DNA from: an uncultured bacterium
GTDB lineage: Bacteria > Atribacterota > Atribacteria > Atribacterales > Caldatribacteriaceae
Assembly (NCBI GenBank): GCA_937139415.1
Contig: CAKZPS010000050.1
Span: 1-56,708 of the forward strand
DNA length: 56,708 bases
Reading direction: 5' to 3'
Part shown: piece after piece, positions 18,235-40,619 of the stretch
How the letters are laid out: each line of letters begins with the position of its first letter
Position numbering within the stretch: position 1 is the stretch's first letter
The notes under the pieces: model-generated
What the model was told of the DNA's origin: nothing
The model's input: the letters and a program-made list of their open reading frames with translations, nothing else
Database searches by the model: none
Translations under genes and position numbers: made by a program

Positions 18235-18426
18235 TTGCGAGCCTCGCTTTCTCGCTTGGCGAAGTAACCTCATAGTTTTTCCCTGAAGAGACAGAAAAAG
18301 ATAAGACCGCCACGGCACAAGATGCGCGCCTCGCAGTGACAAAAAAACTCAAGCATGAGATACCCTCCTCGCGATGACAAAAGGGGGTCATTCCGAGGGT
18401 CTTTTTTCCGTCTCCCGTGGGAATCC
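18235..18426 (+). repeat. 192-bp intergenic repeat, copy A
   Basis: Aligns without gaps to 35338-35529 with four mismatches by eye count, all in the segments around 18366-18387. The left part contains an imperfect palindrome built on TTGCGAGC and the right part has CTCGCGATGACAAAA and GTCATTCCGAGGG. Related motifs (ATTGCGAGC ... GGCGAAG.AA.CTC, GCAGTGAC, GTCATTCCGA) are known as widespread non-coding repeats in many bacterial genomes. Decayed relatives occur at 12420-12545 and 53088-53160. No open frame or transposase is inside. Confidence 0.9.
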
Positions 18427-22446: not shown

Positions 22447-23412
22447 ATGAAAAGACGTTTCTTTCGCTGGGAATGGCTCTTATTGATTTTGATTATCGGT
22501 ATTTCTATTGTCAACGGTCGTCTTTCGACTCATTTTTGGAGTTACACCGGGCTCATGGATGCTCTGGCGGTATTCTTGGAGAAAGGGTTCATGGTTTTAA
22601 CGATGGTTCTTGTCCTCGTCATCGGAGATATTGACATTTCCGTGGCCTCGATCACCGCACTTTCTTCGGTTCTCATGGCCATGGCCTATCGTGGTGGTTT
22701 ACCCATGGCGCTTGCGGTGCCCCTTGCCTTAGCTGTGGGCGTGGGGTGTGGATACTTTAACGGCACGCTCATTGCCAAGATTCCCGGATTGTCGGCAATC
22801 ATCGTTACCCTGGCTGGTTCTTCCCTCTACCGGGGCATTGCTTACATTCTCCTCGGTGACCAGGCGGTAGGAGGATTCCCTTCCTGGTATTCTTATCTTG
22901 CCTGGGGATACATAAAGGGGACTCATATTCCTTTCATCATCGTCGCTTTTCTCGTTTGTGCCCTCTTCTATGGTCTCCTCCTCCATCGGACTACCTTTGG
23001 ACGCCGCCTCTACGCCATAGGGAATAATCTGGTCGCAGCCCGTTTCTCGGGGGTCCCGGTGGCGAGAATCAAGCAGATTGTCTTTACCCTCAACGGGCTC
23101 ATGGCAGGAGTTGCCGCGGTATTTCTCACCTCCAAATTGGGGAGCTCCCGCCCTAACATTGCCTTGGGATATGAGCTTGAGGTCATTGCCATCACCGTTT
23201 TGGGTGGAGTCAGTCCCTCGGGGGGAAAGGGAGGCATTGTGGGAGCGTGTTTGGCTCTCCTTCTCATGCGTCTCCTCCGCTACGGGATGGGACTCAAGAA
23301 TATCCCCGGACAGGTGATGATGGTCCTCATTGGGATTATCCTCATCGGCGTGGTGATGGTTCCCCAATTGGTGAGCACACGAAAGGGGAAACCGCTCGTT
23401 CGAGAGAGTTAA
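22447..23412 (+). CDS. rhaQ: Rhamnose-type ABC transporter permease RhaQ
   Basis: Second permease, 321 residues, expected to pair with RhaP. It shows the same family motifs: 'LEKGFMVLTMVLVLVIGDIDISVASITALSSVLMA' and 'AITVLGGVSPSGGKGGIVGACLALLLM'. The ATG at 22447 starts one base after the rhaP stop and has a short GAGG site upstream within rhaP. Its stop overlaps the stop of the convergent glycosyltransferase gene by 4 bases, and no terminator is visible between them. Confidence 0.9.
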   Translation: MKRRFFRWEWLLLILIIGISIVNGRLSTHFWSYTGLMDALAVFLEKGFMVLTMVLVLVIGDIDISVASITALSSVLMAMAYRGGLPMALAVPLALAVGVGCGYFNGTLIAKIPGLSAIIVTLAGSSLYRGIAYILLGDQAVGGFPSWYSYLAWGYIKGTHIPFIIVAFLVCALFYGLLLHRTTFGRRLYAIGNNLVAARFSGVPVARIKQIVFTLNGLMAGVAAVFLTSKLGSSRPNIALGYELEVIAITVLGGVSPSGGKGGIVGACLALLLMRLLRYGMGLKNIPGQVMMVLIGIILIGVVMVPQLVSTRKGKPLVRES

Positions 23413-26400
23413 CTCTGTTTGGTGTTTTCGACCCGTTTTCCGAGATACCTCGCCCATCGCTTCCAAGAGGAAGGAGTATTCTCGGTGAGGAGGATTGTAT
23501 CCACTGCCTGGATGAGAGCGCCGTGTTCTCCCTCGCTCAAGCTCTCGTTCACAAGGAGGATATCGGGCGTTTTCTCCGGGTCTATTCCTTGCGCGGCTAA
23601 AAACTCGGTCATCTTTTGGAGAACCGCCGAAGGTTCACCCTCTTCATAGACCACCAAGGTGACCTCCTCTTCCGGTGAGAAACTGCGGAGGTACCAGAGG
23701 AGGACCTCTTCAGAGAAAGGTGCTAAGTAGCGCACCTTTCTTGCCCCGTCAAGAGGGTAGGGTGAGGGTTGGAGGGGAACGAAGTGCTCCGCAGGGCTGA
23801 AGCTTCTCTTAAGGAGTGTACCGAGTGGATAACCTTCGGTAGGAGAGAGGTTTTGAGGCAGTTCCCATTTCTTTTTAAACTTCTCCCAGTTTTCTAACAT
23901 CAGCGCTCGGTAATCGATTTTTTCCCTCTGGAAGGTCTTACTCCCAAAGTGGTGGATGAAGACGTCATGGGCTACTTTGATCCGGAATCCGGCGAGTTGG
24001 GCCCGAATGCAGAAATCATCATCTTCGAAGTTCCCCAAGCCAAAGTATAGGTCAAATCCTCCGATGGCCTCGATAACCTCTCTTTTCACGAGCATGCAAA
24101 AGCCGATCACCCTCCCCACATTCTCCCACTTTCCCGCTCTCTCCAGGCTCCACGCTCGGGCAAACTCTTGCATCTTGTCCATGTCTTCTCCATAGGGGAC
24201 CTGAGGAACGATTTGGAGCCCAGCAACGTAGTTGGAGCAGGGGCCGACAATGCCCACCCGGGGGTCCGATTCTGCACAGGCGATGAGCCGCCTGAGCCAC
24301 CCCTCGGTGACGATGGTGTCGTTATTCAAGAAGAGGAGATAATTCCCCTTCGCTTCTCTGATTCCCCGGTTGTTCCCCAAGGGAAATCCGAGGTTCTCTC
24401 CATTTTGAACGAGGGTAACCCCTTTTTCTTGTCCTAAGAATTCTACCGTTCCATCGGTCGAGCCGTTATCCACAACGATGATTTCATGTGGTTCGGGGGT
24501 GTACCGGCGGATACTCTCTAAGCACTTTTGGGTGTACTCGAGGTTATTGCGGGTGAGGAGGATGATAGAAGTAAGAGGTGGCTCGTATTTTTTGATTGCC
24601 GGGGGAGAAATGGCTTGAAGTGAATTGTCGGGAAAAAGGATGTAGTCAGGAGTGATTTTCCCCAACCACTTTTTATGGAGTCGTTCGATGTTTTCTCTTA
24701 CTTTCCGAAACCGCTCTGGACCGCTTTGGGCCTCATGGTGAATGACTACACTTTGAGGTTCATAGACAATGAGCCAACCTTTACTTTGGAGCTTGAAACA
24801 TAGATCGACGTCTTCATACCCGTTCCAGTATTCTTCATCAAAACCTTCCACTTCCTCAAAAGCCTTACGTCGGATGAGAAGGCACGCAGCGGTAACTGCT
24901 TGGTAATATCGCCTCTCGTTAGTGACCTCGAGGGAAGCTGATTGTTTCTGATACACGTGGGTAGCATAGAGTGGGTCAGAACTCTTGCGATGATCGAGGA
25001 TGATTACCCCCGCGTGTTGAATTGATCCGTCGGGAAAGAGGAGCTTACCCCCTACGGCACCGACCCGAAAGTCATTGTCAAGAAGCTTCACCATAGGTTG
25101 CAACCAGTTCTCCTGCACTTCGGTGTCGTTGTTGAGAAAGAGGAGATACTCTCCGGAACTCACTTCTGCTCCCTGATTACAGGCTTTGGCAAAACCGAGG
25201 TTCACCGTATTCCTGAGATACCGCAAGCGCGGGTACTTCTGAGTAGCTTCCTTGAGGAACTCGGGGGTGCGATCCGAGGAAGCATTGTCAACCACGATAA
25301 CCTCCCAGGGGATATCGGAGGGAGTGTGAGTAAACAAAGCTTGCAGACATTTTTCCGTGAGTTCAACCTTGTTGAAGACCGGTATGATAATGGAGACCTT
25401 GGGATTTTGAAGAATTTTTAGTCGTTTCGTGTATGATTCTGCCTTGTCTCGTTCACCGATTCTTTCGTAAATGTCGCGAAGGTTTTCCGTTGCTAAGATG
25501 TTGTGGGCATCTCGATTCAGGCACTCTTCTAAAATCATGATAGCCAATTCGGTGTGACCTTGAAGAAAGTGGAGAACTCCCAAATCATTTAAGGCCTCGG
25601 TGGTGTCGGGGTAACAAGCAATAAAAGCGTGTAAGAGCTCAATAGATTCTTCGATGAAACCCTTTTTGATGAGTTCTTGAATAGTTTGGTATTGCTTTTC
25701 AGGATTGATTTGGATCCGTTTGATTGCTTCGCTTTCCCTAATGATGGGGAAAAGACGTATCGACTGAAAAGAGGGCTGGACGTCCTGATACTCTTTCATT
25801 TCGTCCTCGACTTTTTTTATGGTCTCGATGAGATTAGCTCTCTCTTCTTCGAGAAAATTTACCTGGCTGAGCCAACCACGGAGTGCATTTCTCAAGTTGG
25901 TAAGAGCAAGGAAATACAATTCAGGACTTTGGAGATAACCCAAGGATCTACTCTTTGTAAGAGCATGGTACCATGATTTTAAAGAAAAGAAAAACATCTC
26001 AGGGTTTCTTTGGGTTTGTTGCGCATGTTGTCGAAATGAACTCAGTGGTTGTGCGATGTAGATAATATTACCCTTGGCGAGGAGCCATATCCATAGAGCG
26101 ACGTCGATCAGGCCTCTTTGTTCTTTCTCTTCGCCATAAAGTTTGTAGAAAAAGGTCTTAAAGTTGTGGGCGTCTTCTCTGCGGAACATGACAGTAGAAG
26201 GTTCGCCAATGAAGTTAACCAGTTGAGTTAAGAGCAGATTACCGCAATCGATGCCAGTAATGTAAACATCTCGATCGCTTAATGGCCGAGTGGCACCGTC
26301 GTCAGGAAGTAGGTTCTCATTTTCATCGATGCGATTTCTTTTGCTCGTGACGAGCGTGATTCTCTTATCATAGGCTTCAAAATAAGCAACCATGTTTTTG

Positions 26401-27239
26401 AGACACATTGGATGTAAAAGATCGTCATCGTTGAGAAACTTAACATACTTTCCCCGTGCTTTGGAGAGCACCAAAAAGTAGTTATCACAACTACCTAAGT
26501 TCTTTGGATTTTTAAAAAATTGGACACGACTATCTCCGAGAGAGTGCACGAATTTTTCGATTTCTTCTCCTGGAGAGTCATCGCAAACAATGACTTCAAA
26601 GTTGAGATAGGTTTGTGACAAGGCGCTTTGAAGCGCTTTTAAAAAGAACTTGGGATTGTATGCTGGAATGCAAATGCTCACCAGGGGCAAAAGATGGGCA
26701 TGTTGTCCGTTTTCTTTGGTGAACTCTACTACGAGAGATCCGGATCGATGTTCAAGCCCTTCGAGCTCCTTGTACATACTTTCACTAACAGGTTTTTGCT
26801 CCCACAGAAGAAAGCCAGCAAGATGACCAACCATTACTAAATCTTCGAGGTCGTAAATATGTTGATGTCCCCATTCTCTTAAAGATAAGTTGAGCATAAC
26901 ACAACGGTTAGGTATCCACTGATAGTGAAAACGTGTAATCCATTCAGCTTGGGACCATGAATTTTGAATATACCTCTCAACATTCTTTGTTAAATCGGGA
27001 GTTGCTATTCGACACACTCCACCCGGTTTGAGGATGCGATATACTTCCTTTAAAAACATAATAACTTCATCGCGAGTCAAATGTTCGATGAAATGTTCGG
27101 CAAAAACAAAATCAACGCTTTTGTCAGGAAAAGGAAGACCCTCTCGAACATCCCTTACTATGTCAGGGTTCTCCTCAATATCAATGTTAACGAAACCTTT
27201 TAGTTTTCTTGTTCCACAACCAACATGAAGTTTGATCAT
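23409..27239 (-). CDS. Giant multi-domain surface-glycan enzyme: methyltransferase, GT2, TPR, GT2, GT2
   Basis: A 1276-residue protein that combines at least five modules, so it probably builds and caps a surface or flagellar glycan. Residues 1-175: SAM-dependent methyltransferase (HVGCGTRKLKGFVNIDI, 'YRILKPGGVCRIATPD'). About 186-430: GT2 glycosyltransferase ('LVSICIPAYNPKFFLKALQS', DDD metal site in 'FLNDDDLLHP'). About 520-625: TPR-like helical repeats ('EALNDLGVLHFLQGHTELAIMILEECL'). About 630-880: second GT2 ('VSIIIPVFNKVELTEKCLQAL', 'LFLNNDTEVQENWL', 'GYEDVDLCFKLQSKGW'). About 905-1150: third GT2 ('TSIILLTRNNLEYTQKCLESI', 'LFLNNDTIVTEGWL', 'FEDDDFCIRAQLAGFRI'). The C-terminal ~110 residues are unassigned. 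The N-terminal third is strikingly AT-rich, the C-terminal half GC-rich. No signal peptide; cytoplasmic. Confidence 0.9.
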   Translation of the reverse strand: MIKLHVGCGTRKLKGFVNIDIEENPDIVRDVREGLPFPDKSVDFVFAEHFIEHLTRDEVIMFLKEVYRILKPGGVCRIATPDLTKNVERYIQNSWSQAEWITRFHYQWIPNRCVMLNLSLREWGHQHIYDLEDLVMVGHLAGFLLWEQKPVSESMYKELEGLEHRSGSLVVEFTKENGQHAHLLPLVSICIPAYNPKFFLKALQSALSQTYLNFEVIVCDDSPGEEIEKFVHSLGDSRVQFFKNPKNLGSCDNYFLVLSKARGKYVKFLNDDDLLHPMCLKNMVAYFEAYDKRITLVTSKRNRIDENENLLPDDGATRPLSDRDVYITGIDCGNLLLTQLVNFIGEPSTVMFRREDAHNFKTFFYKLYGEEKEQRGLIDVALWIWLLAKGNIIYIAQPLSSFRQHAQQTQRNPEMFFFSLKSWYHALTKSRSLGYLQSPELYFLALTNLRNALRGWLSQVNFLEEERANLIETIKKVEDEMKEYQDVQPSFQSIRLFPIIRESEAIKRIQINPEKQYQTIQELIKKGFIEESIELLHAFIACYPDTTEALNDLGVLHFLQGHTELAIMILEECLNRDAHNILATENLRDIYERIGERDKAESYTKRLKILQNPKVSIIIPVFNKVELTEKCLQALFTHTPSDIPWEVIVVDNASSDRTPEFLKEATQKYPRLRYLRNTVNLGFAKACNQGAEVSSGEYLLFLNNDTEVQENWLQPMVKLLDNDFRVGAVGGKLLFPDGSIQHAGVIILDHRKSSDPLYATHVYQKQSASLEVTNERRYYQAVTAACLLIRRKAFEEVEGFDEEYWNGYEDVDLCFKLQSKGWLIVYEPQSVVIHHEAQSGPERFRKVRENIERLHKKWLGKITPDYILFPDNSLQAISPPAIKKYEPPLTSIILLTRNNLEYTQKCLESIRRYTPEPHEIIVVDNGSTDGTVEFLGQEKGVTLVQNGENLGFPLGNNRGIREAKGNYLLFLNNDTIVTEGWLRRLIACAESDPRVGIVGPCSNYVAGLQIVPQVPYGEDMDKMQEFARAWSLERAGKWENVGRVIGFCMLVKREVIEAIGGFDLYFGLGNFEDDDFCIRAQLAGFRIKVAHDVFIHHFGSKTFQREKIDYRALMLENWEKFKKKWELPQNLSPTEGYPLGTLLKRSFSPAEHFVPLQPSPYPLDGARKVRYLAPFSEEVLLWYLRSFSPEEEVTLVVYEEGEPSAVLQKMTEFLAAQGIDPEKTPDILLVNESLSEGEHGALIQAVDTILLTENTPSSWKRWARYLGKRVENTKQS

Positions 27240-31375: not shown

Positions 31376-32113
31376 TTGACGATACGAGGTGTGATTTTAG
31401 CCGGAGGAACGGGGTCGCGACTCCATCCACTCACCAAGGTGACCAATAAGCATCTTTTGCCGGTGGGGAAATACCCGATGATTTTCTATCCCATCTTTCG
31501 TTTGAAACAAGCGGGGATCCGGGAAATTCTCATTGTGACCGGCAGAGAACACATGGGAGACGTGATCGAACTCTTGGGGAGTGGTAGGGACTTCGGGGTA
31601 GAGTTTACCTATCGGGTTCAGGATGAGGCGGGAGGGATTGCCCAAGCTCTGGGTTTAGCCAAAAATTTTGTCGGGGGAGAGCGGTGTGTGGTGATTTTGG
31701 GAGATAACATTTTCGGTGAGGACCTTGCTCCTTTTGTGGAAGCCTTTCGGAGGCAAGCTGAGGGGGCCAAAGTTCTCCTCAAAGAGGTTCCCGATCCAGA
31801 GCGCTTTGGGGTAGCGGTTTTTGAGGGAGAAAAAATTATCGCTATTGAGGAGAAACCTGCCAAACCGAAGAGCCGCTATGCGGTGACCGGAATCTACATG
31901 TACGATGCCGAGGTATTCGAGATTATCGCTACCCTGAAACCTTCGGCACGCGGAGAGCTTGAGATTACCGATGTGAATAACGCCTATTTACGTAAGGGTA
32001 CCCTCACCTACGGCATTTTATCCGGCTGGTGGAGCGATGCGGGGACTCCGGTTTCTCTCTATACCGCAAATACCCTGGCCAAAGATATGATTCTCGATTT
32101 CGAAGGCCTATGA
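31376..32113 (+). CDS. rmlA: Glucose-1-phosphate thymidylyltransferase, short form
   Basis: First step of dTDP-L-rhamnose synthesis: glucose-1-phosphate plus dTTP gives dTDP-glucose. The 245-residue protein is a short RmlA lacking the C-terminal extension of the 290-residue enzymes. The nucleotide loop GVILAGGTGSRLHPLT, 'NKHLLPVGKYPMIFYPI', 'VVILGDNIFGEDL' and 'IEEKPAKPKSRYAVTGIYMYD' are all present. The start is a TTG at 31376, 6-7 bases after a G-rich ribosome site, since the family start lies two or three residues before the GVILAGG strand. Overlaps rmlD by 4 bases. Gene order A-D-B-C is one of several known arrangements. Confidence 0.93.
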   Translation: MTIRGVILAGGTGSRLHPLTKVTNKHLLPVGKYPMIFYPIFRLKQAGIREILIVTGREHMGDVIELLGSGRDFGVEFTYRVQDEAGGIAQALGLAKNFVGGERCVVILGDNIFGEDLAPFVEAFRRQAEGAKVLLKEVPDPERFGVAVFEGEKIIAIEEKPAKPKSRYAVTGIYMYDAEVFEIIATLKPSARGELEITDVNNAYLRKGTLTYGILSGWWSDAGTPVSLYTANTLAKDMILDFEGL

Positions 32114-32973
32114 GGGTGATGGTTTTAGGAGCGAAAGGACAGTTGGGAGGTGCCTTCTGTGAGTTCTTGCGTCCGCAAGTCCATGTCTACCCCTTTTCGC
32201 GGGAAGAGCTCGATATCACCGATTTAGGGGCACTCATGCGGATGTGTTCAGAGCTTTCTCCTTCCCTCATTCTCAACTGTGCGGCCTATACTCAGGTTGA
32301 CCGAGCAGAAGAAGAGAGAGCTCGCTCCTATCTTGTGAATGCCTTAGGGGCGCGGAATGTCGCTTTTTGTGGGTACAAGGTGGGGGCAAAGGTGGTGTAC
32401 TTCAGTACTGATTATGTCTTTGACGGAGAGAAGAGAACCCCTTACACCGAATTCGATCCTCCTTCTCCTCTCTCCGTATATGGTCATTCTAAACTGTGGG
32501 GGGAGAAGTTCACTGCTCTCTTTAACCCCGATCACCTCATTATTCGGGTGTCCTGGCTCTACGGGAGGAGGGGCAAGAACTTTGTGAAAACTCTGGTACG
32601 CCTCGTCAAAGAGGAAGGGAAGAAGACGCTGCGGATCGTTGTAGATCAAAAGGGAACCCCTACTTATGCAGAGGATGTCGTGGGGAAAACTTGGGAATTA
32701 GTGGAGAGAAACGCGGTGGGCCTCTATCACGTAACAAACGGTGGAGAAACAACGTGGTTCCATTTCGCTCAAGAAATCGTTCGTCTCCTCGATCTCCCTG
32801 CCGAAGTAGTGCCGATTGAAAGTAGTGCGTATCTTGCTTTGGCGAAAAGACCCTCCTATTCCGTTTTGCATAATCTTATGCTACAGTTAGAGGGAATTCC
32901 GCTTTTGCGGAATTGGCAAGAAGCTTTGGGCGAATTTTTGCATTCTTGGAGAGAGGGTATTCTCCATGGATAG
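32110..32973 (+). CDS. rmlD: dTDP-4-dehydrorhamnose reductase
   Basis: Last step of dTDP-L-rhamnose synthesis, reducing the 4-keto group with NAD(P)H. 287 residues, extended SDR fold: 'VMVLGAKGQLGGAFCEFL' nucleotide-binding loop, 'LILNCAAYTQVDRAEEER', 'VYFSTDYVFDGEKRTPYTEFD', and the catalytic YxxxK in 'VYGHSKLWGE'. The ATG at 32110 overlaps the rmlA stop as ATGA; an upstream in-frame ATG inside rmlA is rejected. Overlaps rmlB by 8 bases. Confidence 0.94.
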   Translation: MRVMVLGAKGQLGGAFCEFLRPQVHVYPFSREELDITDLGALMRMCSELSPSLILNCAAYTQVDRAEEERARSYLVNALGARNVAFCGYKVGAKVVYFSTDYVFDGEKRTPYTEFDPPSPLSVYGHSKLWGEKFTALFNPDHLIIRVSWLYGRRGKNFVKTLVRLVKEEGKKTLRIVVDQKGTPTYAEDVVGKTWELVERNAVGLYHVTNGGETTWFHFAQEIVRLLDLPAEVVPIESSAYLALAKRPSYSVLHNLMLQLEGIPLLRNWQEALGEFLHSWREGILHG

Positions 32974-33973
32974 AGTTACCATTCTTGTGACTGGTGGGGC
33001 AGGTTTCATTGGCTCTTGCTTCATTCACTCCTTGAGGAAAACACGCCCTGATTACTCCATTATCAACGTAGATAAGTTGACCTACGCCGGGGATTTGCGC
33101 AATCTTGAAGGAATCGAAGAAGGCAAGAATTACCATTTTGTCCGGGGTGACATTACCAATCGAGAGCTCATGCGATACCTCTTTTCCGCTTTTCGACCTC
33201 GATACGTGGTCAACTTTGCTGCCGAGTCCCATGTGGACCGGAGTATCGCCGGACCAGAGATTTTCGTCCACACCAATGTCTTAGGGACTCAGGTGCTCCT
33301 TGAGGCTTTTCGAGATTATGTCGGCCAAGGCTCTCATGAAGCTCGGTTTTTGCAAGTGAGTACTGATGAAGTATACGGCGCTCTCCCTCTTGAGAGTGAG
33401 GAACGATTCTCTGAAAATTCGCCGCTCCGGCCGAATAGTCCTTATGCGGCTTCCAAAGCGGCGGCGGATTTATTGGTGCGTTCTTACTGGGTTACCTATC
33501 GTTTACCGGTCCTCATCACCCGTTCTTCAAATAACTTTGGTCCGCGACAGTACCCGGAGAAGCTCATCCCCCTCATGATTACCCACGCCTTAGAGGGGCA
33601 ACCGCTCCCTGTGTATGGTGATGGGCAGAACGTCCGTGATTGGCTCTATGTCGAAGAGAACTGTCGAGCCATTGATATGGTCCTCCACCGGGGAAAACCG
33701 GGAGAAATCTACAACATTGGCGGGAGAAACGAGTGGCGTAACATCGATTTGGTGAGGCTCCTCTGCGACCTTCTCGCCGAAGAGACAAAGAGAGAGGCCG
33801 AAGAATATCGGAAACTCATTACTTTTGTCCCCGATCGTCCTGGACACGATCGTAGGTATGCGCTCAATACAGAAAAGATTTACCGGGAACTGGGATTTCA
33901 AGCGCAGGAAAATTTTCGCGAGGCTTTGCGCCATACGGTGAGGTGGTACATTGAACGTCATGGAAAGGTTTAG
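32966..33973 (+). CDS. rmlB: dTDP-glucose 4,6-dehydratase
   Basis: Second step of the pathway, producing dTDP-4-keto-6-deoxyglucose with a tightly bound NAD. 335 residues: 'ILVTGGAGFIGSCFIHSL' loop, 'NVDKLTYAGDLRNL', 'VNFAAESHVDRSI', the catalytic 'STDEVYGAL' and YxxxK in 'PYAASKAAADLLVRSY', and 'NFGPRQYPEKLIPLMI'. Its product can go to RmlC/RmlD for rhamnose or to the aminotransferase encoded divergently. Overlaps rmlD by 8 bases and rmlC by about 14. Confidence 0.96.
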   Translation: MDRVTILVTGGAGFIGSCFIHSLRKTRPDYSIINVDKLTYAGDLRNLEGIEEGKNYHFVRGDITNRELMRYLFSAFRPRYVVNFAAESHVDRSIAGPEIFVHTNVLGTQVLLEAFRDYVGQGSHEARFLQVSTDEVYGALPLESEERFSENSPLRPNSPYAASKAAADLLVRSYWVTYRLPVLITRSSNNFGPRQYPEKLIPLMITHALEGQPLPVYGDGQNVRDWLYVEENCRAIDMVLHRGKPGEIYNIGGRNEWRNIDLVRLLCDLLAEETKREAEEYRKLITFVPDRPGHDRRYALNTEKIYRELGFQAQENFREALRHTVRWYIERHGKV

Positions 33974-34523
33974 CGTGCGGGAAACTCCTCTCCCTGGAGT
34001 AGTACTCATTGAGCCAAAGGTTTTTGAAGACGAGCGGGGTTTTTTCCTCGAAACCTATCGGTTACAAGACTTTCACTCTCTGGGTGTCCCCGGACCTTTT
34101 GTACAGGACAACCACTCCCGTTCCCGTAAGGGTGTGCTGCGGGGGCTCCATTTCCAGAAAAATCGCCCTCAGGGAAAGTTGGTGCGGGTCGTGAGGGGGC
34201 GGATCTTCGATGTTGCCGTGGACATCGCCCCCCACTCTCCCACTTTCGGTCAGTGGTATGGAGTAGAGCTCTCCGAGGAGAATCACTATCTCCTCTACAT
34301 TCCTCCTTCTTACGCTCATGGGTTCTTGGTGCTCTCCCCGGTTGCCGATGTCCTCTACAAGGTGACCGATTACTATGCTCCCGAGGACGAGGGAGGGATT
34401 CTTTGGAACGACCCCGATCTCGGTATTGCCTGGCCCCTTGAAGAAGTAGAGGAGGTCCTCCTCTCTCCTAAGGACAGAAAGTGGGGTCGTTTGAGAGACC
34501 TTCATTTTGAGCGCCATGCCTGA
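33960..34523 (+). CDS. rmlC: dTDP-4-dehydrorhamnose 3,5-epimerase
   Basis: Third step of the pathway, a cupin-fold epimerase of 187 residues. Signature segments are 'PGVVLIEPKVFEDERGFFLETY', 'VQDNHSRSRKGVLRGLHFQ' (catalytic His in RGLHFQ) and 'PPSYAHGFLVLS' with 'YKVTDYYAPEDEGGILWNDPDL'. The ATG at 33960 is listed; a TTG at 33951, 4 bases after GAGGTGG, is an equally possible start and would add three residues. Overlaps the end of rmlB, and its end overlaps mutM slightly. Confidence 0.94.
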   Translation: MERFSVRETPLPGVVLIEPKVFEDERGFFLETYRLQDFHSLGVPGPFVQDNHSRSRKGVLRGLHFQKNRPQGKLVRVVRGRIFDVAVDIAPHSPTFGQWYGVELSEENHYLLYIPPSYAHGFLVLSPVADVLYKVTDYYAPEDEGGILWNDPDLGIAWPLEEVEEVLLSPKDRKWGRLRDLHFERHA

Positions 34524-35307
34524 GCTTCCTGAGGTGGAGGTAGTCCGTCGCTCTCTCATAGGGTTTGTGGAGGGGTTTTCTATCCTCGCCATAGAGGAAC
34601 ACACCCCTCACTTCCCCCTTTCCCAAGGAATTCTCTCCCAGAGGATAGAGCGTTTCTCTCGCCATGGCAAGTGGCTTTTCTGGGAATTCTCCGCTCAGGA
34701 CGCTTTGGCCATTCATTTGGGAATGACCGGAAGACTCCTCGTCCGTGCTCATAGAACCTCTTTCCCCCACGAACACCTCTCCTTTTTCTTCTCTTCCGGA
34801 TACTGGATTTCCTTCTGTGACCAGCGGCGTTTCGGAGAGATTCGCTATCTCTTGAAAAGAGAGAAAGACACCCTCCTCCTTCGTTTGGGTATCGATCCCT
34901 TTTCTCCCTCTTATACCTTTGAGAGGGTGAGAGAGCTTTTGCGGGGGAAGCGCCGCCTCAAGGATTTCCTCCTTGATCAAGAAAAAATTGCTGGGATCGG
35001 CAATATCTACGCAAGCGAAATCCTCTTTCGGAGTAAGCTCCATCCGGAGCGAAGGCTCGATACCCTTCGCGAAGAGGAAAAACAAAGGCTTTTTACCCTC
35101 ATCCCTCAGGTTTGTGAAGAAGCCGTTCGTTGTCAGGGGACGAGTATCCGAGATTTTGTGGGGGGAGAGGGAGAAAAAGGAACCTTCCAGGATTGTCTTT
35201 TTGTCTATGGACGTGCAGGACTTCCTTGTAGGGCGTGTGGGACGGTGATTATCCGCCAAGTGATCGGGGCAAGGAGTACCTATTTCTGTCCCCGGTGTCA
35301 GAGGTAA
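34516..35307 (+). CDS. mutM: Formamidopyrimidine-DNA glycosylase (Fpg/MutM)
   Basis: Removes oxidised purines such as 8-oxoguanine from DNA and nicks the abasic site. The start at 34516 gives the obligatory MPELPEVE N terminus, whose proline after Met removal is the nucleophile and whose glutamate is catalytic; the frame is open three codons further upstream, which would block activity. 'HGKWLFWEF' carries the conserved lysine near residue 55. The C-terminal zinc finger is intact: Cys238, Cys241, Cys258 and Cys261 with 'VIIRQVIGARSTYF' between. 263 residues is normal length. It overlaps rmlC by 8 bases, so it is co-transcribed with a pathway to which it is not functionally related. Confidence 0.96.
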   Translation: MPELPEVEVVRRSLIGFVEGFSILAIEEHTPHFPLSQGILSQRIERFSRHGKWLFWEFSAQDALAIHLGMTGRLLVRAHRTSFPHEHLSFFFSSGYWISFCDQRRFGEIRYLLKREKDTLLLRLGIDPFSPSYTFERVRELLRGKRRLKDFLLDQEKIAGIGNIYASEILFRSKLHPERRLDTLREEEKQRLFTLIPQVCEEAVRCQGTSIRDFVGGEGEKGTFQDCLFVYGRAGLPCRACGTVIIRQVIGARSTYFCPRCQR

Positions 35308-35337
35308 AAGCCTCCTCGCAGTGACCCTTCCTTGTCT

Positions 35338-35529
35338 TTGCGAGCCTCGCTTTCTCGCTTGGCGAAGTAACCTCATAGTTTTTCCCTGAAGAGACAGAAA
35401 AAGATAAGACCGCCACGGCACAAGATGCGCGCCTCGCAGTGACAAAAAAACTCAAGCATGAGATACCCATCTCGCGATGACAAAAAGGAGTCATTCCGAG
35501 GGTCTTTTTTCCGTCTCCCGTGGGAATCC
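35338..35529 (+). repeat. 192-bp intergenic repeat, copy B
   Basis: Collinear with copy A (18235-18426) over 192 bases with four mismatches by eye count and no gap. It starts 30 bases after the mutM stop. Flanks beyond both ends differ completely from those of copy A, apart from a further CCTCGCAGTGAC motif at 35312. The rest of the 432-bp gap (35530-35688) holds no recognisable element until the sigma-28 promoter. Confidence 0.9.
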
Positions 35530-35688
35530 GGCTGAAAGCCGTCGCGATGACCAAAGAGCCAAGTCGTGAGACTACCACGAGATTCAGAAAAGAGTTCCGG
35601 GCGGTGGCAAGTTAAGGCCGCGGTGGTGCGGAAACGTGCCTTGTGGTGCAGGGAGGGCAATTTGGCAAAAAATTTTATGAGAGATCTA

Positions 35689-35715
35689 TAAAGTTTTTTT
35701 ACCTTTTTCCGATAA
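35689..35715 (+). promoter_or_regulatory. Sigma-28 (FliA/SigD) flagellar promoter for the TPR-GT2 gene
   Basis: TAAAGTTT at 35689-35696, an 11-base spacer, and TCCGATAA at 35708-35715. The established sigma-28 consensus is TAAAGTTT-N11-GCCGATAA, so this site differs at one base in sixteen. It lies 24 bases before the start codon at 35740, a normal leader. Confidence 0.88.
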
Positions 35716-35739
35716 TGAGAATGAGAAAGAGGTGAGAGT

Positions 35740-37422
35740 ATGCCTGTCCGGATTATAGAAGACGTGAAGAGCGGTGGGGAGGTCTGCCTGAGTGAAGAGT
35801 TGAAAAAAGGGGAAGCCTTTCTCTCCCAAGGGAATCTCGACGAGGCAGAGAAGTGTTTCCGGAGCATGTTGCAGAGAGACCCTCGTCATCCCTCGGCATA
35901 CGGTGGCTTGGGATTGGTTACTTATTATCGCAAGGATTATAAGGAAGCGGAGAAGTTCTTGCGTTTAGCGGTCCAATACGACCCTGAGTATGCCGCGGCG
36001 TGGAATAATTTGGGGGGAGTGTTCATTGCCCGGCAAAAATACTCTGAAGCCAAAGAGGCCTTGGATCGAGCGCTCTCTCTCAAACCCGATTTAGAAGACG
36101 CCCTCAACCAGCGTTTTTGGTTAGAGGAAAAAGTGTATAATCCCACTGGTGATTACCGCCATGGGCGGTATCCCACTGTGAGCCTGTGCATGATTGCCAA
36201 AAATGAAGAGAGAAATCTCCCTCGTGCGCTTGCCTTGGTGCAGAATGTGGTCGATGAAATGATTGTGGTTGACACCGGCTCCACCGACCGGACTGTGGAA
36301 ATTGCCCGCTCGTTTGGAGCACAGGTGTATTCCTTTCCCTGGTGCGATGATTTTTCGGCGGCGCGCAATGAATCGCTTCGCTACGCTACCGGTGAGTGGA
36401 TTCTCACCATGGATGCCGATGACGAGATGCGCGAAGAAGACCTCAAGAAGCTCAAGCTCCTCTTGCGGGTGACCGATTATACCGCTTTTGAAGTTTTGAT
36501 TCGCAGTCCGCTCACTCCGACCGGGAGGAGGGAAGAGATGAACTATTTGATACGGGTATTTCGCAACCATCCTGCCATTCGCTTTCGTAACCGGATTCAC
36601 GAGACGGTGACCCAGTCGGTAGTAGACCTGGGAGGGAAAGTGGGGAGATTGAAAACGCTTGTCGTTCTCCATCATGGGTATGAGAGTGACTTGCGGGTAT
36701 CACGCAAAGTACACGAGCGAAATCTCCAGATTCTCCTCAGAGAATATGAGGAAAACCCTGAGGATTTGAGGGTGATGTACTACTTGGCTTCCGCCTATCT
36801 TCCTCAAGGGAAGAGGGAAGAAGCCAAAAGTCTTTTCCTCCGCCTCCTTGAGCGCTCTCGGGAACTTCATGTGGGTGCGCTTGTCCTTTCCTGTATACAG
36901 CTTGCCCAGATGTCCTATGGTGAGGGTGGGTATGAAGAGGCGGTGAAGTATCTCGAAGAAGCCCTGGAAAAGGACCCCTTCCTTCCCGATACCTACTATT
37001 GGCTTGGGCGGGTATTCCACAAAATGGGTCGCTACGAGGAGAGCTTAGCGTATTTGGAGAAGACCTTTCAGGTGGATTACGGAAAGACTCTCTCCCCATT
37101 TGTGTTCATCTTTTTTGATGAGGTAGATGCCTACTGTCGTATGGCCGACTGTGCGTACCGTTTGGGTAAGGAAGACCTTGCGCAAGAGTATTGGGCGAAG
37201 CTTACCGAGCTCACCCACAATGATCCTGATGGCTTGCATAGTCTTGGAAAGACCATGCTCGATACCGGTTGCCTTGAGGAGGCAGAAATGTGCTTTCGCT
37301 CAGCGCTCACTCTCCATCCCCTCCATCGTGAGGCGCGAAATCACCTCCTCAATCTTCTCCTCCGCCAGGGGAGGCTCGAAGAGAGTAAAAATTTTCTCCA
37401 GGAATTGCGGGAATCCCTCTAA
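35740..37422 (+). CDS. TPR-GT2-TPR glycosyltransferase, probable flagellin glycosyltransferase
   Basis: A 560-residue cytoplasmic protein with three parts. Residues about 18-130 are TPR repeats ('AAAWNNLGGVFIARQKYSEAKEALDRAL'). Residues about 145-360 are a GT2 glycosyltransferase ('TVSLCMIAKNEERNLPRAL', 'VDTGSTDRTVEIARSFGA', metal site 'TMDADDEM' at 224-230). The remainder is again TPR-like ('DTYYWLGRVFHKMGRYEESLAYLEKTF'). The ATG follows GAGGTGAG. Because its promoter is of the flagellar sigma-28 class and the flagellin gene follows 166 bp downstream, the likely target is flagellin, with the TPRs holding the acceptor; the target is inference. Confidence 0.9.
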   Translation: MPVRIIEDVKSGGEVCLSEELKKGEAFLSQGNLDEAEKCFRSMLQRDPRHPSAYGGLGLVTYYRKDYKEAEKFLRLAVQYDPEYAAAWNNLGGVFIARQKYSEAKEALDRALSLKPDLEDALNQRFWLEEKVYNPTGDYRHGRYPTVSLCMIAKNEERNLPRALALVQNVVDEMIVVDTGSTDRTVEIARSFGAQVYSFPWCDDFSAARNESLRYATGEWILTMDADDEMREEDLKKLKLLLRVTDYTAFEVLIRSPLTPTGRREEMNYLIRVFRNHPAIRFRNRIHETVTQSVVDLGGKVGRLKTLVVLHHGYESDLRVSRKVHERNLQILLREYEENPEDLRVMYYLASAYLPQGKREEAKSLFLRLLERSRELHVGALVLSCIQLAQMSYGEGGYEEAVKYLEEALEKDPFLPDTYYWLGRVFHKMGRYEESLAYLEKTFQVDYGKTLSPFVFIFFDEVDAYCRMADCAYRLGKEDLAQEYWAKLTELTHNDPDGLHSLGKTMLDTGCLEEAEMCFRSALTLHPLHREARNHLLNLLLRQGRLEESKNFLQELRESL

Positions 37423-37446
37423 AGTTTTGGGGGGAGAGACCGATAT
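37420..37446 (+). promoter_or_regulatory. Sigma-28 (FliA/SigD) promoter for flagellin
   Basis: TAAAGTTT at 37420-37427 (its first three bases are the stop codon TAA of the upstream gene), an 11-base spacer, and ACCGATAT at 37439-37446, which matches GCCGATAA at six of eight positions. Predicted start near 37453 leaves a leader of about 135 bases before the flagellin ATG. Confidence 0.82.
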
Positions 37447-37588
37447 TAAGGATAGGAAACGAAAGTGAGGAGGTGACGAGAGAGGATAAGTGATAGAGGA
37501 GAAGTCGGGTTTTTGGTTTTCAAATCGTGTGGGAGAGTGAAGAAGGCATGGATGCCTCAAGAAAACTTTACGGAGGAGGTTGACCAGA

Positions 37589-38413
37589 ATGGGTTTACGA
37601 ATTAACCAAAATATTACTGCGCTCAATGCGCATCGGAGTCTCACCCAAACGGATAACGCCCTCTCGAAGTCTCTGGAGAAGTTGTCTTCGGGTTTGCGGA
37701 TTAACCGTGCCGCTGATGATGCGGCGGGGTTAGCTATCTCGGAGAAAATGCGCGGGCAGGTTAAGGGATTGGCGCAAGCGACTAGAAACGCTCAAGATGC
37801 CATTTCTCTCATCCAAACCGCAGAAGGGGCGCTCAACGAAACTCACTCCATTTTGCAGAGGATGAGACAGCTCGCCGTCCAAGCGGCGAACGATACCAAT
37901 ACCCAGGAAGATCGTCAACAGATCCAGCAGGAAATTACTCAACTCATCGCGGAGCTTGACCGTATTGGTGATACCACCCAATTTAATACCAAGGTGCTTT
38001 TGAGTGGTGATTTCGCGACCAACACTTTGACCTTCCACATTGGTGCGAATCAAGATCAGGTTATTGCTCTCAATATAAACGATATGCGAGCTACAGCTTT
38101 GACGGTCAATGGAATTGATGTAACCACTCAAGCCGGTGCCGAAACAGCCATTGCTTCCTTAGATGTGGCTATTAATGCTGTCTCCACCGAACGCTCTAAA
38201 CTCGGTGCTTACCAGAACCGTTTAGAGCACACCATTGCCAACCTGGGTGTCGCGCAGGAAAACCTCACTGCGGCGGAATCCCGTATCCGCGACGTCGATA
38301 TGGCCCAGGAAATGATGGAATTCACCAGGGCACAAATTCTCTTACAAGCGGGTACGGCAATGCTTGCCCAAGCAAACACCCTGCCGCAAGCGGTGCTCCA
38401 ACTATTACGATAG
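37589..38413 (+). CDS. fliC: Flagellin
   Basis: Filament subunit, exported through the flagellar apparatus. 274 residues with the canonical ends and a short central domain: N-terminal D0/D1 'GLRINQNITALNAHRSL', 'SSGLRINRAADDAAGLAISEKMRGQ' and 'NAQDAISLIQTAEGALNE'; C-terminal 'AAESRIRDVDMAQEMMEFTRAQILLQ' and 'AMLAQANTLPQAVLQLLR'. The variable region (about 140-200) is small, as in minimal Firmicutes/Thermotoga-type flagellins. The ATG at 37589 follows AGGAGG; an in-frame TTG at 37580 is not needed. Driven by its own sigma-28 promoter and closed by a strong terminator. Serines and threonines of the central part are candidate glycosylation sites for the enzyme encoded upstream. Confidence 0.96.
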   Translation: MGLRINQNITALNAHRSLTQTDNALSKSLEKLSSGLRINRAADDAAGLAISEKMRGQVKGLAQATRNAQDAISLIQTAEGALNETHSILQRMRQLAVQAANDTNTQEDRQQIQQEITQLIAELDRIGDTTQFNTKVLLSGDFATNTLTFHIGANQDQVIALNINDMRATALTVNGIDVTTQAGAETAIASLDVAINAVSTERSKLGAYQNRLEHTIANLGVAQENLTAAESRIRDVDMAQEMMEFTRAQILLQAGTAMLAQANTLPQAVLQLLR

Positions 38414-38459: not shown

Positions 38460-38828
38460 GTGAAGGTGGATTCTTCGATGACCGCCAAGGGGTTAGAACA
38501 GAGAGTTACTTCCTCTCTTCAAGGAGAGGGGGTTTTCTTACGTCCCCCTCGTGAGGAGGAAACGCTCCGAGAGAAGCAAAAGAAGGAAAAAGAAAATTTT
38601 CTCGACCCAGAAAAAACCAAAAATCTTACCGAGGCTCTCAATAATTTGTTTCAGGCTTTCAATTTGGAGCTCCGTTTCTCCATCCATGAGGGGACCCGTG
38701 AGGTGATTGCCCGGATTGTCAATCGCGAGACCGGGGAAGTGATTCGGGAGATTCCCCCGGAAAAGTTTTTGGATATGATTGCTAAACTACGGGAACTCGC
38801 CGGTCTTTTTATCGATGAGTTAGTGTAG
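38460..38828 (+). CDS. flaG: FlaG family flagellar protein
   Basis: A 122-residue FlaG protein, associated with control of filament length. The N-terminal half is charged and poorly conserved; the C-terminal half has the family signature 'ELRFSIHEGTREVIARIVNRETGEVIREIPPEKFLDM' split over residues about 70-110. The start is a GTG at 38460 following GAAGGGATGG. It lies between flagellin and fliD, as it often does. It has no signal peptide. Confidence 0.88.
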   Translation: MKVDSSMTAKGLEQRVTSSLQGEGVFLRPPREEETLREKQKKEKENFLDPEKTKNLTEALNNLFQAFNLELRFSIHEGTREVIARIVNRETGEVIREIPPEKFLDMIAKLRELAGLFIDELV

Positions 38829-38837
38829 GAGGGTGTC

Positions 38838-40217
38838 ATGGCCAGCACGTTGAGTATTAGTGGTTTAGTTTCCGGTTTGGACACGAACAGTATCGTCAGT
38901 CAACTCATCGCCCTTGAGCGAACCAAAATCACCCAGCTTGAGGAGAAAAAGAGTACCTACGAAACGAAGCTCAATTTGTGGCAGAGTTTGAATACCCGGC
39001 TTTTAGCCTTAAAAGAGAGTATCTCTCGGCTCTCTTCTCCTACTGCTTTCCGAGCCAAGGCGACTGCGGTGAGTAACGAGAGTGTTTTATCCGCGGTAGC
39101 GACCTCAAGCGCGCTCACCGGGAGCTATCGGCTTGAGGTGCAGCAGCTCGCCTATGCCCATCAGATCGCAAGTAGCACTTCTTACGAAAACTATGACACC
39201 CTCCGTTTTGGAGAAGGAACCATTACTCTCCAGGTCGGTGGGGGTGCGGTGACCGAGATCACCATTGATAGTACTAGCAACACCTTAGAGGGGATCAAAA
39301 ATGCGATTATGCTTGCGCAAGCAGGGGTTAAAGCAGCGATGGTGAGAGACCAAACCGGTTATCGTCTCCTTCTCACCAGTAATACCACCGGCTCCCAGGG
39401 GGCGATTACCTTCACTGCCAACCTCACCGGAGGAGATGCGGAACTTTCGGGGATGACCGAACTTCAGTCGGCGCAGAATGCGCGAATTCTTCTTGGAGTG
39501 ACGAACCCCATCGTCTATGAATCATCGTCAAACGTAGTGAGTGGCTTTATCCCCGGAGTAACTCTGACCCTGAAGAGTACCGGAACGGTGAATTTGACCG
39601 TTGCGGAAGACAGAGAAAGCATAAAGAGCGCCCTCCGAGATTTCATTGAGAAGTATAACGATCTCGTCGACTTTGTGGATGAGAATGCTTCCTACAATGT
39701 GACTACGGAGAGAGGTGGCGCCCTCTTAGGTGATGCGAATCTCTATCGCGTGGTGTCGGGGGTAGCTAATCAGGTTTTGGGACGAATTTCCTATACCAAT
39801 TCGGGCTACGATAGTTTAGCTATGGTTGGAATTTCCGTGGATCGCTACGGAAAATTGTCCTTACAGAATGAGACGAAACTCAACGATGCTCTTGAAACGA
39901 ACTTCGAAGCGGTACAGGGGCTTTTTGTAGGGGGCGGTTCTGCGAGCGAAAAGGGTTTGGCAGTGCTCCTTAAAGAGCATCTTGCTTTTGCCACCGATTC
40001 CTATCAAGGGACGGTAAAAAGGGTACGGGATTTCTATAGTAACGTCATCAAAGACATTGACGAGCGGATTGAACTCATGGAAGAACGATTAGAACGGGAA
40101 GAAGAGCGCCTGTACACCCAGTTTGCCGCCTTGGAAAAAGTGCTCGCCACCTATCAAACCCAGTCGGAGTGGCTCACGCAACAGATTGCTAACCTATCGA
40201 AAAATTGGCGATCGTGA
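38838..40217 (+). CDS. fliD: Flagellar filament cap protein FliD (HAP2)
   Basis: Forms the cap on which flagellin polymerises. 459 residues. N-terminal part begins 'LSISGLVSGLDTNSIVSQLIALERTKITQLEEKKSTYETKL' over residues 5-45, the FliD_N signature with coiled coil; the C-terminal part (about 270-455) has 'FIEKYNDLVDFVDENASYN', 'LLGDANLYRVVSGVANQVL' and a long terminal coiled coil ('DIDERIELMEERLEREEERLYTQFAALE'). The ATG sits 9 bases after the flaG stop and follows AGGAGGGTG. Co-transcribed with flaG, fliS and the FliT-like gene. Confidence 0.94.
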   Translation: MASTLSISGLVSGLDTNSIVSQLIALERTKITQLEEKKSTYETKLNLWQSLNTRLLALKESISRLSSPTAFRAKATAVSNESVLSAVATSSALTGSYRLEVQQLAYAHQIASSTSYENYDTLRFGEGTITLQVGGGAVTEITIDSTSNTLEGIKNAIMLAQAGVKAAMVRDQTGYRLLLTSNTTGSQGAITFTANLTGGDAELSGMTELQSAQNARILLGVTNPIVYESSSNVVSGFIPGVTLTLKSTGTVNLTVAEDRESIKSALRDFIEKYNDLVDFVDENASYNVTTERGGALLGDANLYRVVSGVANQVLGRISYTNSGYDSLAMVGISVDRYGKLSLQNETKLNDALETNFEAVQGLFVGGGSASEKGLAVLLKEHLAFATDSYQGTVKRVRDFYSNVIKDIDERIELMEERLEREEERLYTQFAALEKVLATYQTQSEWLTQQIANLSKNWRS

Positions 40218-40232
40218 AGTGGAGGTTAACCT

Positions 40233-40619
40233 ATGAATACCTATAGTGCTAATTTGGTGCGCAATTACCAGGAGAATGCGGTGTATACCGCTTCACCGGT
40301 GAAACTCATCGTGCTCCTTTACGAGGGGGCAATTCGCTCCTTGCGTTTGGCAGAGCGTCATTTCGCCGAGGGTAAGCTCGAGAGAGCCCGAAGCGAAATT
40401 TTGCAAGCGGAGAAAATTCTCTTAGAGCTCATCAATACCCTCAATTTTGCGCAAGGAGGCGATATCGCCAAAAATCTCTTTGCCCTCTACCAGTTTATTC
40501 TGCGGCAGTGCGCTTCCCTTTCTGAAGAGAATACCCCCGAGATGATTCCCCGACTGGTAATGCTTCTTGAAGGACTCAAAGAAGCGTGGCAGGAACTGGC
40601 CAAAAATGCCGCTCACTAA
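40233..40619 (+). CDS. fliS: Flagellin-specific chaperone FliS
   Basis: Cytoplasmic chaperone that keeps flagellin unpolymerised before export. 128 residues, all-helical, with the standard opening 'NLVRNYQENAVYTASPVKLIVLLYEGAIRSLRLA' and 'LNTLNFAQGGDIAKNLFALYQFI'-like segments (read as 'INTLNFAQGGDIAKNLFALY'). The ATG lies 15 bases after the fliD stop behind GTGGAGG. Its end overlaps the next gene by 14 bases. Confidence 0.94.
   Translation: MNTYSANLVRNYQENAVYTASPVKLIVLLYEGAIRSLRLAERHFAEGKLERARSEILQAEKILLELINTLNFAQGGDIAKNLFALYQFILRQCASLSEENTPEMIPRLVMLLEGLKEAWQELAKNAAH

Follow-up and report, generated by a model that had tools for sequence, protein, structure and literature searches.

GmaR of Listeria monocytogenes is both a flagellin O-GlcNAc transferase and the antirepressor of MogR; a proposed role of its TPR domain is the recognition of flagellin (PMC9638930). 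In Clostridioides difficile, the gene CD0240 adjoins fliC, and its expression ratio in a sigD mutant versus the wild type is 0.06 (PMC3865298); GT1, the counterpart of CD0240 in type B, is needed for the addition of GlcNAc to flagellin (PMC10889297). A 2026 survey of Clostridium took the combination of GT2 and TPR as the mark of a flagellin glycosyltransferase (PMC13317340). FlmG of Caulobacter crescentus acts in the cytoplasm, where its N-terminal TPR domain alone binds flagellins and its C-terminal domain transfers the sugar (PMC7591256).

The locus analyzed here lies in a stretch of 56,708 nucleotides (hereafter, the window), which makes up a single contig (C50) in a genome of 2.32 Mb and 96% completeness. 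The host is a heat-loving, largely uncultured bacterium of the phylum Atribacterota, and Candidatus Caldatribacterium supplied the nearest named relatives in the glycosyltransferase homology search. On the forward strand, the window carries a gene of TPR-GT2-TPR architecture (35740..37422, with ATG at 35740) whose 560-aa product is, based on the open reading frame, Pfam, an AF2 model, and homology, a putative flagellin O-glycosyltransferase. Directly 3' of it, on the same strand, Pfam identified genes for flagellin (37589..38413), FlaG (38460..38828), the filament cap FliD (38838..40217), and the flagellin chaperone FliS (40233..40619), in agreement with an earlier note that had placed the gene beside flagellin. 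A small conserved protein is encoded after FliS and occupies the same place in one relative. On the 5' side, profile searches identified rmlA-rmlD-rmlB-rmlC-mutM (31376-35307). mutM is followed by a long gap before the glycosyltransferase gene, in which there are short repeated CGCGATGACAAA-like motifs (35310-35560), also present at 18370, which perhaps belong to a dispersed repeat family.

Our main reading, to which we assign a probability of roughly 0.8, is that this gene encodes a putative late-class, soluble, cytoplasmic flagellin O-glycosyltransferase. The observations behind it are the promoter motif and its conservation, the presence of FliA and FlgM, gene order, co-occurrence with flagellin, the fold, and the conserved catalytic residues.

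A TPR-flanked GT2 glycosyltransferase related to GmaR

The TPR-GT2-TPR architecture described in the earlier note was borne out by Pfam and by the AF2 model. An N-terminal TPR block (residues 17-132; 35788..36135) precedes the GT2 catalytic domain (approximately residues 145-315; 36172..36684; PF00535, 1.5e-23; also recognized by phmmer), which is followed by a C-terminal TPR superhelix (residues 318-560; 36691..37419). The DXD motif, D225-A-D227 (36412..36420), falls in invariant alignment columns and aligns with the IDAD of GmaR, and His287 of the IHE motif (36598..36600) is also invariant; overall, D225, D227, H287, and H311 are invariant among 30 aligned sequences. The AF2 model, computed with 30 sequences (mean pLDDT 89.4, pTM 0.73), places helical TPR blocks on both sides of a GT-A-like domain.

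In a phmmer search of PDB sequences, GmaR was the best match to the GT2 domain (2.9e-32; residues 7-199 of its GT chain aligned), with SunS and ThuS next. Foldseek ranked ThuS and SunS first, followed by the TPR superhelices of OGT and SPINDLY. SunS and ThuS are S-glycosyltransferases that share the GT2 fold, but they modify a cysteine of glycocin peptides, and the window protein falls below the curated cut-off of TIGR04195 (92.9 versus 350 bits). No glycocin peptide gene was recognized at the window locus.

Like the window protein, GmaR is a cytoplasmic protein that combines a homologous GT2 domain with TPRs. GmaR has 637 aa in the order GT, TPR, linker, antirepressor (PMC9638930), whereas the window protein has a TPR block before the GT domain, no recognizable antirepressor region, and a sigma-28-type promoter. 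A chiefly regulatory function, like that of GmaR toward MogR, with the transferase activity secondary or a vestige, is very unlikely for the window protein. Among proteins of solved structure, its nearest GT2 relative, GmaR, does act as both glycosyltransferase and antirepressor (PMC9638930), but the antirepressor part of GmaR lies C-terminal to the TPRs, while here both flanks of the GT2 domain are TPR and the catalytic residues are intact. A late-class promoter would also be ill suited to an upstream regulator, and the MogR domain PF12181 had no match in the window genome, although control genomes were equally silent in this search.

The other described systems resemble the locus in part. 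By their descriptions, CD0240 (GT1) and the window gene are alike in being glycosyltransferase genes beside flagellin with sigma-28 (SigD) dependence, which is predicted here; CD0240 sits 3' of fliC together with glycan-extension genes, whereas the window gene is 5' of flagellin. FlmG works in a similar manner by description, with TPR binding and a catalytic domain, but its sugar is pseudaminic acid and it is cell-cycle regulated. The window protein fits the GT2 plus TPR combination of the Clostridium survey (PMC13317340). The Clostridium GT2-TPR proteins are predicted in hypervariable islands between flagellin genes, whereas the window has one stand-alone gene, and no second TPR-GT2 match to the glycosyltransferase was found in the window genome. 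Features that characterize GT2-TPR flagellin glycosyltransferases were found here, namely the domain fusion, a position in the late flagellar cluster, and intact DXD and IHE motifs.

Sigma-28 sites at the locus, in relatives, and across the genome

Scored against the 16 positions of the sigma-28 consensus TAAAGTTT-N11-GCCGATAA, the site before the glycosyltransferase gene, TAAAGTTT-N11-TCCGATAA (35689..35715, forward strand), matches at 15 of 16. It consists of TAAAGTTT (35689-35696), the 11-nt spacer TTTTACCTTTT, and TCCGATAA (35708-35715), and 24 nt separate it from the ATG at 35740, as the earlier note had read. Those 24 nt form a short predicted mRNA leader (35716..35739) with a Shine-Dalgarno-like GAGGTGA, in which no CsrA-type hairpin was seen. 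No exact 16/16 match to the consensus occurs anywhere in the window. Known RNA families were not found in the region.

A separate sigma-28 site, TAAAGTTT-N11-ACCGATAT (37420..37446, forward strand), precedes flagellin and was absent from the earlier note. It overlaps the end of the glycosyltransferase gene, and its TAA is the stop codon of that gene. Searching the 2.32-Mb genome with the pattern TAAAGTTT-N12-CCGATA revealed only three copies without mismatch: those before the glycosyltransferase and flagellin (37420) genes, and one located 223 nt 5' of a dCache/HAMP/MCP chemoreceptor gene. Of three further sites with one mismatch, one is 40 nt 5' of a second chemoreceptor (MCP) gene. With the looser pattern TAAAGNNT-N10-12-NCCGATAN, six copies were found, versus two for the reversed control; two copies are at the locus, one is 46 nt 5' of flgM-flgN-flgK-flgL, and of the three elsewhere, two overlap unrelated genes. 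The sites before flgM-flgN-flgK-flgL and the second chemoreceptor gene are weaker copies. Flagellin, the flgM operon, and chemoreceptor genes are typical sigma-28 targets. Sites resembling the sigma-28 motif with one mismatch also precede two apparent lipoprotein genes (L182, C63:25075; L183, C44:20921), whose products have a C39-like peptidase domain and a carboxypeptidase regulatory-like domain, respectively; these are possible, if unexpected, late-flagellar genes.

The earlier note's reading depended on a sigma-28 gene in the genome. A profile search identified FliA above its cut-off (216.7 versus 189.6 bits), with fliA located in an operon alongside genes for flagellar export and chemotaxis, and FlgM is also encoded (PF04316, 5.6e-14).

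Promoter conservation was assessed at six family-level loci that have the gene directly 5' of flagellin together with upstream DNA (G000, G013, G015, G016, G019, and L006, the last being Ca. C. californiense). Each of the six has, a short distance 5' of the start codon, a sigma-28 site that matches at 13-16 of the 16 positions. Mean pairwise identity was 81% in the boxes, 35% in the 11-nt spacer, and 25% in the preceding 40 nt, and the glycosyltransferases of these genomes share 45-47% identity with the window protein. Since the boxes are conserved and the spacer and upstream DNA are not, the site stands out as a clear promoter footprint. G022 and G024, which are order-level outgroups, keep the glycosyltransferase-flagellin gene pair and the flagellin promoter, and no sigma-28 site was found before their glycosyltransferase genes.

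That absence in G022 and G024, and the overlap of the G024 gene with an upstream methyltransferase-glycosyltransferase gene, would suit a coincidental promoter match in the window, with the gene transcribed from elsewhere, for example together with mutM. We consider this exceedingly improbable. When the 280-nt region was shuffled 2,000 times (first-order), 15/16 matches were never reached, the site is at a short distance from the start codon, its boxes are conserved at six loci amid unconserved surroundings, no sigma-70-like site was found in the region 5' of the gene, and mutM is approximately 380 nt away. The motif is rare genome-wide, with three perfect copies, and this rarity, along with the shuffles and the conserved boxes, rules out a chance origin of the motif. 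We infer from the sequence that the glycosyltransferase gene is transcribed by sigma-28.

In the proposed mechanism, completion of the hook would allow FlgM to leave the cell and free FliA (sigma-28), which would transcribe the genes for the glycosyltransferase and flagellin, each from one of two neighboring and almost identical promoters. The TPR blocks flanking the GT2 domain would hold flagellin that is unfolded or bound to a chaperone, and the GT-A/DXD site would move a sugar from a nucleotide-sugar donor to flagellin Ser/Thr residues before export.

Flagellin as the probable acceptor

Distribution of the glycosyltransferase gene was analyzed in a phylum sample of 50 genomes, 11 of which have a strong flagellin match. 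With a threshold of E < 1e-40, the gene was present in 10 of the 11 flagellin-bearing genomes and in one of the 39 others, an association with a Fisher p of ~1e-8 that is not corrected for relatedness of the genomes. The single match among flagellin-less genomes, in G025, is partial and 37% identical, and the one flagellin-bearing genome in which the gene is absent is G007. The gene is also absent where FliA occurs without flagellin, as in many genomes of the order's second family. In this family (G001-G010), all ten genomes encode an FliA-class sigma factor above the curated cut-off, and a strong flagellin match was found only in G007 (the match in G009 is weak and interrupted); the sigma factor, being mostly without flagellin there, may serve a different function or be a relic. 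FliA appears split over two contigs in G017 and was not found in G016, an 88% complete genome. Outside the phylum, flagellin was within the flanks examined at 21 of 80 loci (the best 80 relatives); GT2-TPR proteins form a large family, and many relatives have no flagellin in the flanks examined.

In eight genomes the gene is directly 5' of flagellin, as is one truncated copy. It follows fliD-fliS in G014 and G017; in G014, a second copy is represented by its C-terminal end just 5' of flagellin. Methyltransferase-GT2 fusion proteins are encoded at 23409-27239 in the window and at L132:8789-11071, and the methyltransferase-GT2 gene of G024 that overlaps the TPR glycosyltransferase gene at its start may extend the glycan.

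An enzyme co-regulated with flagella could instead glycosylate another late surface or secreted product, such as the FliD cap, a lipoprotein, the S-layer, or exopolysaccharide. The two genomes with the gene after fliD-fliS, the two lipoprotein genes preceded by one-mismatch sites, and the polysaccharide/rml cluster upstream in the window are consistent with such an acceptor. We nevertheless judge it improbable, as co-occurrence tracks flagellin itself rather than FliA, the closest structural relative, GmaR, acts on flagellin, and the gene adjoins flagellin in nine genomes. Promoter conservation, co-occurrence, synteny, and GmaR homology point to flagellin modification, and they strengthen what the earlier note had concluded from placement in the late regulon. 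We therefore take flagellin to be the probable acceptor, through an O-linkage.

The flagellin of the window has 274 aa, versus 487-767 aa for the complete flagellins of relatives, which are longer because of a central insertion. According to Pfam and alignment, it lacks the central D2-like domain, which every complete flagellin of the compared relatives contains, and retains no more than the D0/D1 core with a short linker. With flagellin as the acceptor, D1 or the linker would thus have to carry the sugars, and the acceptor residues should lie in the exposed D1/linker region at approximately residues 117-190. Ser and Thr residues of this region, listed purely as candidates, are T117, S139, T144, T146, T148, T169, T172, T179, T180, T186, and S190. 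Conservation of flagellin Ser/Thr was rejected as a predictor of acceptors: most of the invariant residues belong to the D0/D1 core of all compared flagellins and are therefore uninformative on glycosylation.

By likeness to GmaR, the donor would be UDP-GlcNAc. The nearby rml genes suggest dTDP-rhamnose as an alternative. As evidence for a rhamnose donor, the rmlA-D-B-C neighbors are weak, because among the loci read the rml-flagellar neighborhood was found only here and in one relative, G017; rhamnose is kept as an alternative donor. In G017, the order rmlA-rmlD-rmlB-rmlC-mutM is also 5' of flagellin (L135) and rml adjoins the flagellar cluster, but the transferase sits elsewhere.

A hairpin in the flagellin leader and the timing of expression

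The flagellin leader (37447..37588, forward strand) is 142 nt long in the window and 142-219 nt among relatives. Alignment and covariation identified a CsrA-type hairpin with an NGGA loop, AGGCA-TGGA-TGCCT in the window, approximately 44 nt before the flagellin ATG, followed by the Shine-Dalgarno sequence GGAGGAGG. In a comparison of the window with ten relatives (L127-L133 and L135-L137), 92% of the cells of the five-pair stem were paired, and the outer pair occurred as AU, UA, CG, GC, or GU. The stem covariation score was 0.276, versus 0.082 in shuffles, with none of 500 shuffles as high; single-sequence folding of the flagellin leader was no better than shuffles. The window genome encodes csrA and fliW 3' of flgL. 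CsrA-FliW control of flagellin has been described in Bacillus and Campylobacter (PMC6529632, PMC4894983), and the hairpin together with csrA and fliW is in keeping with control of this kind.

With a hairpin in the flagellin leader and none in the glycosyltransferase leader, the enzyme may come first: it could plausibly be made once sigma-28 is free, while flagellin waits until FliW sequesters CsrA. A more tentative extension, which we regard as rather doubtful, is that a shared sigma-28 switch with a CsrA/FliW gate on flagellin alone would let a pool of enzyme precede flagellin translation, such that each flagellin is modified on appearance, and that, with the outer domain lost in this lineage, sugars on D1 would replace part of the missing filament surface.

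Because comparable arrangements have been described in Listeria and Clostridioides, the main reading is well supported rather than surprising; it opens no new mechanism, with GmaR as the precedent for activity and CD0240 for sigma-28 dependence. The locus points to a flagellar hierarchy governed by FliA/FlgM, and probably by CsrA/FliW, in a mostly uncultured phylum. With a 274-aa flagellin and one 560-aa enzyme, it is a compact system for studying the choice of acceptor sites by TPR arms. A phylum-wide prediction also follows, with a candidate enzyme named, that flagellated Atribacterota would modify their filaments.
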